The notes beneath the pieces are model-generated. The model was given only the letters and a program-made list of their open reading frames with translations. It was not told the origin of the DNA and searched no databases. A DNA stretch of 64,000 nucleotides from NCBI GenBank assembly GCA_036226585.1, contig CP108997.1:2232001-2296000 (forward strand), in the 5' to 3' direction. Position 1 is the stretch's first letter; each line of letters starts with the position of its first letter. The stretch is from Streptomyces sp. NBC_00708 (GTDB taxonomy: Bacteria; Actinomycetota; Actinomycetes; Streptomycetales; Streptomycetaceae). The position numbers and the translations under genes were made by a program. Below are positions 26,269 through 45,513 of the stretch, one piece after another.

Positions 26269-27789
26269 TCAGCGCCTTCCCAGGAGCAGCCGGGCCTCGC
26301 CGACCGTGATCACGGAACCGGTCACCAGGACTCCGGCTCCCGCGTACTCGTCCTCTTCCTCGGCGAGGGTGATCGCCGCCTCCAGCGCGTCGTCGAGCCG
26401 GGGTTCGACCTGCACCCGGTCGTGGCCGAAGACCTCGACGGCGACGGCCGCGAGGGCGTCGGCGTCCATGGCGCGCTCGGTGGAGTTCTGTGTGACGACG
26501 ACCTCGGCGAAGATCGGCTCGAAGGCCTCCAGGAGCCCTCGCACGTCCTTGTCGCCGCTGGCGCCGACCACACCGATCAGCCGGGAGAAGCCGAACGCCT
26601 CGGACAGGCCCTCGGCGGTGGCGCGGGCGCCGGCCGGGTTGTGCGCGGCGTCCAGGACGACGGTCGGGCTGGACCGGACGACTTCGAGGCGGCCGGGCGA
26701 GATCACCGAGGCGAACGCGGCGCGCACGATGTCCGCGTCCAGCGTGCGGGGCTGCTCGGCGCCGATGCCGAAGAACGCCTCGACCGCGCAGAGCGCCACC
26801 ACCGCGTTGTGCGCCTGGTGGGCGCCGTACAGCGGAAGGAAGATGTTGTCGTACTCGCCGCCGAGGCCGCGCAGGGTCAGCAGCTGGCCGCCGACCGCGA
26901 TCTCCCGGGAGACCACGCCGAACTCCATGCCCTCGCGGGCCACGGTGGCGTCGACCTCGACGGCCTTCTTCAGCATGACCTGGGCGGCGTCGACGGGCTG
27001 CTGGGCCAGGATGACCGTGGCGCCCTGCTTGATGATCCCGGACTTCTCGGTCGCGATCTCGCCCGGCGTGTTGCCCAGGCGGTCGGTGTGGTCGAGCGAG
27101 ATGGGGGTGACGACGGCGACCGAGGCGTCGATGACGTTGGTCGCGTCCCAGGTGCCGCCCATGCCGACCTCGACGACGGCGACATCGACCGGCGCGTCGG
27201 CGAAGGCCGCGTACGCCATGCCCGTGAGCACCTCGAAGAAGGACAACCGGTAGGGCTGCTGGGCGTCGACCATCTCGACGTACGGCTTGATGTCCTCGTA
27301 CGTGGAGATGAACCGCTCGGCGTCCACCGGGGCGCCGTCCAGGCTGATCCGCTCGGTGATCGACTGGACGTGCGGCGAGGTGTAGCGGCCGGTGCGCAGG
27401 TCGAAGGCGCCGAGCAGGGCCTCGATCATGCGGGCGGTGCTCGTCTTGCCGTTGGTGCCGGTGATGTGGATCGAGGGGTACGCGCGCTGCGGCTCGCCGA
27501 GCACGTCCATCAGGGCGGCGATGCGCGTGACGGACGGCTCCAGCTTGGTCTCGCCCCAGCGGCCGGCGAGCTCCTGCTCCACCGCGCGCAGCGCCTTGTC
27601 CACCTCGGGGTCGGCGGGGCGGGCGGGCACCTCCTCGGCGCGGGGCGGCCCCGAGGCGGCGCGCAGCGTGCGGCTCCCGGCCTCGATCACCGCCAGGTCG
27701 GGGTCGCGCTGGGTCGCTTCGTCGACGATCTCCTCGAAGGTCTCGTCGGGATCGGACGCGTCGGGCCGGTCGGGGCGGGGCTCACTCAC
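26269..27789 (-). CDS. folC: bifunctional dihydrofolate/folylpolyglutamate synthase
   Basis: 506-residue FolC, which adds glutamate to dihydropteroate and tetrahydrofolate. The P-loop is SIHITGTNGKTSTARM, followed by VVEVGMGGTWDATNVI (Mg and ATP site) and VVLDAAHNPAGARA (C-terminal domain signature). The first 80 residues are an acidic, low-conservation extension. The GTG at 27789 is preferred over the ATG at 27819; neither has a good ribosome-binding site. In other Streptomyces folC follows valS; here only a valS remnant and its terminator precede it, so folC needs its own promoter between 27790 and 27850 or read-through. Confidence 0.95.
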   Translation of the reverse strand: MSEPRPDRPDASDPDETFEEIVDEATQRDPDLAVIEAGSRTLRAASGPPRAEEVPARPADPEVDKALRAVEQELAGRWGETKLEPSVTRIAALMDVLGEPQRAYPSIHITGTNGKTSTARMIEALLGAFDLRTGRYTSPHVQSITERISLDGAPVDAERFISTYEDIKPYVEMVDAQQPYRLSFFEVLTGMAYAAFADAPVDVAVVEVGMGGTWDATNVIDASVAVVTPISLDHTDRLGNTPGEIATEKSGIIKQGATVILAQQPVDAAQVMLKKAVEVDATVAREGMEFGVVSREIAVGGQLLTLRGLGGEYDNIFLPLYGAHQAHNAVVALCAVEAFFGIGAEQPRTLDADIVRAAFASVISPGRLEVVRSSPTVVLDAAHNPAGARATAEGLSEAFGFSRLIGVVGASGDKDVRGLLEAFEPIFAEVVVTQNSTERAMDADALAAVAVEVFGHDRVQVEPRLDDALEAAITLAEEEDEYAGAGVLVTGSVITVGEARLLLGRR

Positions 27790-27850
27790 GGGCCCCAGTC
27801 TACGGATGGCCACCGACATCGCGCGCAGCCGCCCGGGGGGCGGACACGCG

Positions 27851-27900: not shown

Positions 27901-28156
27901 TCAGGCCTGCGGCAGGGCGGCCAGCTGACCGCTGATCCGCTCGATGTCGCCCTCGGCCTGGGCCTTCTCCTTCTCGGCGGCGGCCAGGTCCTTGGCGAGG
28001 CGCTTGCGCTCGGCGGCGACGTCGATCGTGCCCTCCGGCTGGAGGCGCGGTACCCGCGTTCTGCCCAGCGCTCGTACAGCCCTTCCCCTCCGCCTCGGCC
28101 GGCGTGCACTGGGTCGGCAGTTCGGGGTGGCTGGCTGGCTGCTGCGCTGGGTTTAC
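27901..28156 (-). pseudogene. valS: decayed remnant of valyl-tRNA synthetase
   Basis: Both ends of ValS can be read in 256 bases, with the catalytic body gone. The N-terminal part (28156 downward) reads VNPAQQPASHPELPTQ and then CTPAEAEGK, as at the ValS N-terminus, but begins with GTA instead of a start codon. After EGK two extra bases shift the frame, and LYERWAERGY continues in the new frame. At a GGTACC near 28047-28052 the text jumps to the ValS C-terminus, RLQPEGTIDVAAERKRL onward, ending ISGQLAALPQA and TGA at 27901. The C-terminal coiled coil is also shortened by about 30 residues. Roughly 800 codons are missing, so it cannot be functional. Position upstream of folC is the normal valS location. 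Confidence 0.85.
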
Positions 28157-28301
28157 GGTCGCGCGGACCGCTTGGAGCCGTCACAGGAGTGCCCCGAAAC
28201 CGGTTTGTTCCGTAACGGTGTGCCTCCCGGTGGTCCGCGCGCGCGGGGCTTCCGTCAGGATGTTCGCAACGCGTAAGTATCACGAACAGGGGACACCGCA
28301 G

Positions 28302-29297
28302 ATGAGCTACAACCAGCCGGGTCCGTACGGTGGCCAGCCGCCGCAGGGCCAGCCCGGACCGTACGGCCAGCAGCCGGGCCCTTACGGCGGTCAGCCGCCG
28401 CAGGGTCAGCCCGGCTACGGCTACCCGCAGCAGGCCCCCCAGGGCGTCCCGCCCCAGCAGCAGCCGCAGCCCGGTTACGGCTACCCGCCGGCCCAGCAGC
28501 CGGGCCCGTACGGCCAGCAGCCGCCCACTCCCCCGTACGGCGGCCAGCAGGCGTACGGCCAGCAGCCGGGCTTCCCCCCGCCGGCCCCCGCGAAGAAGAA
28601 GACGGGGCTGATCGTGGGTGCCGCGGTCCTCGCGCTCGCCGTTATCGGGGGCGGGGTGTACTTCCTGACGTCGGACGGCGGCAGCGGCTCCGTCGCGTCC
28701 TCCACCAAGGGCTACAAGCTGACGCCGCCGGCCTCGGTGGGCGAGTACAAGAAGAGCAACGACTCCTCCGACAACAAGACCGGGCCGCTGACGGGCAAGG
28801 ACAAGACCGAGGCCGAGGGGATGGGCATAAAGTCGCCCACCGAGGCGAGCGCGAGCTACACCAGCGGGGACATGGAGAAGAACCCGCTCACGGCGAAGAT
28901 GCTCGTCCTCAAGGGTCTGTGGGGCCAGGTCGACGACCCGGCGAAGGCGGTCGACGCGGCCTTCGCGAGCGCCAAGGAGGAGATGGGCAAGGACGAGGGC
29001 GACAGCGACAGCGAGGTCTCGCTCGTCGGCTCCCCCGAGAAGGCCGAGCCCAAGGACTTCGACGGCGCCCTGATGAAGTGCCAGGTGCTCAAGACCGTCA
29101 ACAAGGACGCCGACGGTTCGGTCGCGAAGGGCCCCAAGGAGCTCAACACGCCCGTCTGCATCTGGTCCGACTACAGCACCGTCGGCATCGTCTTCGCCGT
29201 CGACGTCGGCGCGGCCATGACCGGCAAGAGCATGGCCACCGACGAGGTCGCCGACCTCGCCGCCAAGCTCTACAACACCTCCCGCACCAAGATCTGA
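28302..29297 (+). CDS. Pro/Gln/Gly-rich membrane-anchored protein, unknown function
   Basis: 331 residues. The first 100 are a Pro-Gln-Gly-Tyr-rich tail with repeats of the type [13 protein letters not shown]. Next come a Lys cluster (PAKKKTG) and one membrane helix of about 20 residues ([20 protein letters not shown]). The remaining 200 residues form an extracytoplasmic domain with two cysteines (MKCQVL and PVCIWS) that could form a disulfide. Streptomyces encodes many proteins of this design; this one has no assigned function. The Met at 28302 is preferred over the upstream in-frame ATG because AGGGGA lies 8 bases before it. It is divergent from the valS remnant and convergent with clpX. 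Confidence 0.85.
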
Positions 29298-45348: not shown

Positions 45349-45430
45349 GCCGGCGCCCCGCACCGGGGCGCGCCGAACGTCCTGCCTCGTGATCGTCTTC
45401 TCAACCTTCACCGGGCAGGCGGATGAAGGG

Positions 45431-45465
45431 GAGGCCCCCGCCCGGACGTGACGGGCGGGGGCCTC
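45431..45465 (+). terminator. sodF terminator
   Basis: A 13-bp perfect stem (45431-45443 with 45453-45465) with a 9-base loop in the gap between sodF and the MOSC gene. Confidence 0.83.
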
Positions 45466-45513
45466 TCTGTCGCATCCCCCGGCTGCCATGATGGCCGCCA
45501 TGAGGAGCACATC

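Follow-up and report, generated by a model that had tools for sequence, protein, structure and literature searches.

That a tRNA synthetase can be displaced by a non-orthologous one acquired through horizontal transfer is well known: a distant enzyme of the same specificity arrives and replaces the resident one. Synthetases also occur in connection with natural products, and in the parts of the sources cited here the albomycin producer is described as carrying a second SerRS (SerRS2/AbmK) among its biosynthetic genes while keeping its housekeeping SerRS (PMC9032320), and agrocin 84 is associated with a self-resistant LeuRS, AgnB2 (PMC5059758). Here we describe a locus of Streptomyces sp. NBC_00708 (G000) at which the canonical gene for valyl-tRNA synthetase (ValRS), valS, lies in ruins. 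We hold it to be highly probable that an acquired ValRS of the alt_ValS family took over the essential ValRS job by non-orthologous displacement, and that the old valS is decaying in two sister species, which have reached different stages.

The valS remnant beside folC

The window, a 64,000-base stretch of this genome, carries on its minus strand a 262-base remnant of canonical valS (28162-27901), in which both ends of the gene can be read by alignment to the valS of relatives. It lies upstream of folC, the usual downstream neighbour of valS, which is intact here (26269-27819, minus strand, 516 aa) and whose counterpart in Streptomyces sp. JJ36 contains Mur ligase domains. The remnant aligned collinearly to the intact valS of genome G227 in three stretches, at 117, 105 and 65 bits. 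As a control, 391 random segments of 261 bases were drawn from the window, and a single one of them gave a match at E ≤ 1e-5, at 39 bits. About 85 of the 873 codons of canonical valS survive. The sequence and its position beside folC identify the remnant as a pseudogene of the canonical Streptomyces valS, and no Rfam family matched it. Elsewhere in the window, at 45377-45467, the sodF sRNA family was matched at 99 bits.

The N-terminal piece (28050-28162, minus strand) holds codons 1-37, as aligned to valS of G195 and G227. The relatives begin with GTG ACC GAG AAC and the remnant reads GCG ACC GTA AAC at 28162-28151, the former start codon (28162-28160) now being GCG. A GG insertion follows codon 27, within the GGG at 28082-28080, and the piece ends at codon 37 (...GGGTAC, 28050). 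The next 16 bases (28034-28049, minus strand), at the join of the main deletion, include a 10-base in-frame match to G195 valS: CTCCAGCCGG at 28044-28035 matches codons 776-779 (RLQP) in the frame of the piece that follows, and probably represents these codons, the match being only 10 bases long. At this join about codons 38-775 are absent. A further 22-23 codons are missing between the 776-779 match and codon 803, and thus there is probably one deletion beyond those listed earlier. The first C-terminal piece (27949-28033, minus strand; about codons 803-830, from GTIDV into the coiled coil) is identical to valS of the sister G195 at 73 of 85 bases; the second (27901-27948, minus strand), placed by alignment to G195 and G227, consists of roughly the final 16 codons with the TGA stop (27903-27901). 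The two share one reading frame and are separated by an in-frame deletion of 84 bases, or 28 codons, in the coiled coil, which is located at an imperfect repeat of some 10 bases. The former upstream region of valS, between the gene and a divergent one at 28303, is kept (28163-28302), and the sister matches it at 154 of 158 bases.

These alignments confirm the decayed valS upstream of folC that a preliminary description of this DNA had reported; it had named a failure of the two end pieces to align to the ValS termini as an adverse outcome, and both termini align collinearly to intact valS. The 2-base insertion after CTPAEAEGK is the GG found here, the in-frame coiled-coil gap that it put at about 30 codons is of 28, and its estimate of about 800 codons lost was close. 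The description was right that the start codon had been lost and wrong in taking GTA for it, since GTA is codon 3 and GCG occupies the old start; for the same locus, the remnant begins at 28162, not at 28156. The N-terminal piece does end at the GGTACC where it had placed the join, and the probable extra deletion beyond that point had been missed.

The only ValRS gene of the genome

The genome assembly comprises 7,654,464 bases in 3 contigs and is 99.99% complete. Searched as a whole with the valS family model, it returned nine matches, amounting to five frames' worth of loci and none above the model cut-off, which represent one ValRS gene in two pieces together with other class I synthetases that we take, from frame size and score, to be IleRS and LeuRS. 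A canonical ValS query at E ≤ 1e-60 found a single gene in the whole genome, at 33% identity, and neither the family nor the protein searches of the whole genome detected a full-length canonical valS elsewhere. The gene that was found lies outside the window, 3.3 Mb from the remnant (G000:C1:5582996-5585620, minus strand), and encodes a protein of 874 aa that scores 1375.3 bits against the NCBIfam model NF000540 (alt_ValS; cut-off 900) and 1103 bits against PRK13208 (valine--tRNA ligase; cut-off 738). The HVGH and KMSKS motifs are present, and the dN/dS of 0.076 relative to the sister G195 indicates purifying selection. An Rfam search near the gene (locus L009) recovered no known RNA element at the gathering threshold. 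Thus, the sole ValRS of this genome is alt_ValS, and because no other was found it must, almost of necessity, be predicted to perform the housekeeping charging of valine tRNAs. The preliminary description had anticipated a second valS, and such a gene is indeed present, intact and belonging to the alt_ValS family; its further suggestion that this would be a divergent, perhaps transferred copy that made the old one dispensable gains support from the 33% identity to the canonical enzyme, from the occurrence of the surrounding island, judged by its fused PLP gene, in 2 of 392 sampled genomes and from the broken valS of the other island carrier.

Canonical valS and alt_ValS across the genus

From the genus we drew 392 genomes, NBC_00708 among them, and at a threshold of E ≤ 1e-200 found canonical valS in 388. 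The four others are this genome, G195, G176 and G376. The last two are assembly gaps, and neither was accepted as a further loss: the valS match of G176 reaches the end of contig C325 (21290-22195 of 22,197 bases), with folC opening C363, and in G376 the folC match is absent too. Fourteen of the 392 genomes carry alt_ValS, namely this one, G195 (97% identity), G227 (81%) and eleven at 61-63%, and 12 of the 14 retain a full-length canonical valS. A second draw from the genus gave 10 carriers in 304 genomes, all among those of the first sample.

In a tree of alt_ValS proteins (66 of the 120 rows collected; quick search, midpoint root), G000, G195, G227, S. pactum, S. chumphonensis, NPDC059785 and others form a 12-row set with a support of 100, to which JJ36 and PU-14G are the next to attach; the eleven Streptomyces copies at 61-63% identity fall in another set, with a Pseudonocardia. 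Streptomyces pactum has two nearly identical alt_ValS records (P0058 and P0060; contig of 7,284,573), which may be two copies, possibly in terminal inverted repeats, or a single locus for which two gene models were recorded.

Decay of valS in the sister species

The sister genome G195, very likely Streptomyces drozdowiczii, is assembled as a single 7.39-Mb contig (7,386,614), and its valS is broken as well. By nucleotide alignment to G227 it retains codons 1 to about 207 and about 522 to the end, some 315 codons being absent; the 5' part, including the upstream region, is 85% identical to G227, with gaps, and the 3' part about 90%. The protein matches stop after query residue 126 and restart at 505, with a stop just past the ISDIEV motif. 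The GTG start is kept, and both the GG insertion and the coiled-coil deletion of NBC_00708 are absent, so these two lesions arose after the species split. A first lesion common to both species may have lain within the part that is deleted in NBC_00708.

In the valS pieces retained by both species, 28 of 256 sites differ, distributed 6/10/12 over the codon positions, both copies being broken; between the same two genomes the difference is 2.6% in folC and, as the median over 36 window genes that a rough gene finder predicted, 5%. The loss of the start, the 2-base insertion, the large deletions and these site differences together establish that the remnant has suffered frame-destroying lesions and is under relaxed constraint.

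The island around alt_ValS

The alt_ValS gene sits in an 18.1-kb island outside the window (G000:C1:5568634-5586761), which aligns in the same order to positions 1593844-1575725 of G195 over 18,138 bases at 91.0% identity and which, in both species, is placed between collinear shared flanks. The simplest account is that it would have been gained once, before the species split. Against a single early gain, seven of the island genes have dS values of 0.21-0.32; those of the 36 window genes range from 0.06 to 0.30, with a median of 0.145. The high island values possibly reflect faster evolution of the chromosome arm, and they fit a separate or later exchange too. The dN/dS of six island genes other than alt_ValS is 0.06-0.15. 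The GC content of the island is 0.667-0.698; on the galE side it is 0.712-0.764 and on the other side 0.698-0.753 over about 12 kb. Because values of 0.67-0.70 recur at 5545-5555 kb, beyond the island, the low GC is weak evidence of a foreign origin. Each species also has a stretch of its own that separates the island from the shared flanks (G000:C1:5547-5568 kb, which holds adenylation and carrier genes, and G195:C1:1484-1575 kb), and this suggests that the arm locus gathers new clusters.

Family searches assign to the island, beside alt_ValS, a galE-like epimerase and a second NAD-dependent epimerase, a weakly matched phosphoribosyltransferase, a small phosphodiesterase/sulfatase-like protein and a type I phosphodiesterase, a fused pyridoxal phosphate (PLP) enzyme that joins a threonine-dehydratase-type to a Cys/Met-type part, a carrier protein, an AMP-binding (adenylation) protein, a short-chain dehydrogenase/reductase (SDR), glycosyltransferases of two kinds, a HAD hydrolase and a sulfotransferase or sulfotransferase-like protein; one island protein found no family match in them. 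This content makes the island probably a natural-product cluster. The fused PLP gene occurs in 2 of the 392 genus genomes, G000 and G195. Eight database proteins are 59-100% identical to its product: two are those of G000 and G195, beside alt_ValS, three more (NPDC059785, PU-14G and one other) come with an alt_ValS record on an equal-sized contig, and the remaining three, including that of NBC_00876, have no paired alt_ValS among the 120 of 7,954 records listed. The fused PLP gene thus probably travels with alt_ValS, judged by these pairings. More distant relatives of it, at 41-45% identity, occur in fungi (Aspergillus, Xylaria, Monosporascus and Pyricularia) and in Pseudomonas (P0010, P0011, P0019, P0023 and P0030).

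Other alt_ValS carriers

Streptomyces sp. JJ36 encodes an alt_ValS 72% identical to that of NBC_00708, and a search at E ≤ 1e-20 of its assembly, of unstated completeness, found no canonical valS. Upstream of folC it has genes for a thioesterase, a condensation-adenylation-carrier non-ribosomal peptide synthetase protein and a cytochrome P450 (L217/L218, G416:C159), and the 1.7 kb just upstream of folC contain no valS match better than E 7.6; it looks as though the place left by valS had been taken up by a biosynthetic cluster. Around JJ36 alt_ValS, 10 kb upstream and 3 kb downstream contain no relative of the island genes.

In other genomes alt_ValS has varied surroundings. In G227 its neighbours are a gene for a regulator-EPSP synthase fusion and, across 6 kb, genes for a ketoreductase (KR)-carrier-thioesterase protein, an FAD enzyme and an acetyltransferase; in G064, G025, G110 and G353 the adjacent genes are unrelated. 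Eighty alt_ValS loci from other genomes belong mostly to Actinomycetota. Relatives at 55.6-63.2% identity occur in six records of a plasmid collection, one of which, at 11.9 Mb, is hardly a plasmid; those of Variovorax and Streptomyces sp. NBC_01724 adjoin aminotransferases or a radical SAM protein, and that of Burkholderia glumae adjoins an IS element. In the tree the extra alt_ValS proteins of the Burkholderia glumae, Paraburkholderia caribensis and Variovorax plasmid records (L221, L222 and L224) come together as a single proteobacterial group, and this, with their unlike surroundings, suggests that alt_ValS may behave as a mobile accessory ValRS.

Discussion

In the displacement that we favour, the ancestor of NBC_00708 and its sister would have gained the 18.1-kb island with alt_ValS, and two ValRS enzymes would have coexisted for a time. 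With alt_ValS charging the valine tRNAs of the cell, canonical valS would have lost its constraint, and the copy beside folC would have decayed by different steps in each species. It was directly observed that valS survives as a remnant, that the genome has no full-length canonical copy and one intact alternative, that both species share the island and that their valS lesions differ; JJ36, with alt_ValS and without canonical valS, counts in favour. On the other side, 12 of the 14 carriers keep canonical valS, so alt_ValS alone does not cause the loss, and the island dS lies above the window median, which fits a separate or later exchange as well.

As to why the newcomer prevailed, we tentatively propose, by analogy and at somewhat less than even probability, that the island product inhibits canonical ValRS and that alt_ValS is the self-resistance enzyme, in which case the sensitive valS would have become useless and been lost. 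Such a mechanism would explain the outcome, since the producer of an inhibitor gains nothing from a sensitive valS. We scanned 120 sequences for residues special to the supposedly cluster-linked copies, a grouping in which linkage was assumed for jgi94 and, from equal-sized contigs, for three rows, and which is confounded by descent. The scan yielded one column, K403, which is shared with nine other sequences, and a residue signature of resistance was rejected. The want of a signature and the 12 of 14 carriers that keep both genes argue against self-resistance. In a literature search, conducted largely outside subscription journals, none of the top-ranked titles and abstracts described a natural inhibitor of ValRS or a valS displacement of this kind, and the review passages that it reached name no such inhibitor.

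A purely neutral displacement is a plausible rival that likewise falls a little short of an even chance: alt_ValS would be a redundant second ValRS with incidental biosynthetic neighbours, and one of the two copies would have been lost by chance. JJ36, which lost canonical valS with no relatives of the island genes in the stretches searched around alt_ValS, agrees with this, as do the many settings of alt_ValS, from plasmid records to the unrelated genes in G064, G025, G110 and G353. However, the fused PLP gene probably travels with alt_ValS, two of the eight PLP proteins being seen beside it and three on equal-sized contigs, and a model with a sensitive resident predicts which copy goes, whereas chance does not.

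We regard it as unlikely that the cluster ValRS is a biosynthetic enzyme supplying valyl-adenylate or valyl-tRNA, with translation taken over as a by-product. The passages available from PMC9032320 provide precedents in AbmK for albomycin and VlmL for valanimycin, and the island does encode adenylation and carrier proteins, but family searches of the island recovered no tRNA-dependent transferase, a weak objection given that one product matched no family. An intact valS collapsed or dropped in assembly is most improbable: such errors do occur, as the gaps in G176 and G376 attest, but the remnant is embedded in a 7.3-Mb contig, within a genome rated 99.99% complete, and it combines several deletions with an insertion and point changes. 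The sister, a single-contig assembly, moreover has a valS pseudogene of its own. Retention of the remnant for a new function, such as a small coiled-coil peptide or a leader, has in its favour that the C-terminal pieces remain in frame with each other and is scarcely credible given the lost start, the shifted frame, the 6/10/12 spread of substitutions over codon positions and the lack of an Rfam family.

Genomes seldom show an essential synthetase halfway through its loss, and the sister pair lets the order of events under displacement be dated and tested. Were the island to make a ValRS inhibitor, the ruined valS would be a signpost to an antibiotic against ValRS, and acquisition of a cluster would have rewired an essential gene; alt_ValS genes on plasmids or beside amino-acid enzymes could then be mobile immunity genes against such compounds, and genomes with a broken housekeeping synthetase could reveal producers.

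The acquired enzyme scores far above the curated cut-off of NF000540, an entry that is named only valine--tRNA ligase and contains no link to resistance. As with SerRS2/AbmK of albomycin (PMC9032320) and AgnB2 of agrocin 84 (PMC5059758), in the accounts excerpted from those papers, a divergent synthetase, beside or apart from the canonical one, stands among biosynthetic genes, which in NBC_00708 are probable ones. Unlike the albomycin producer, which by the same account keeps its housekeeping SerRS, NBC_00708 has lost the canonical gene and the island copy is the only one. In contrast to the usual displacement of a synthetase, the newcomer resides in a probable biosynthetic island, and the resident valS can still be recognised, its decay having gone to different lengths in the two sisters.
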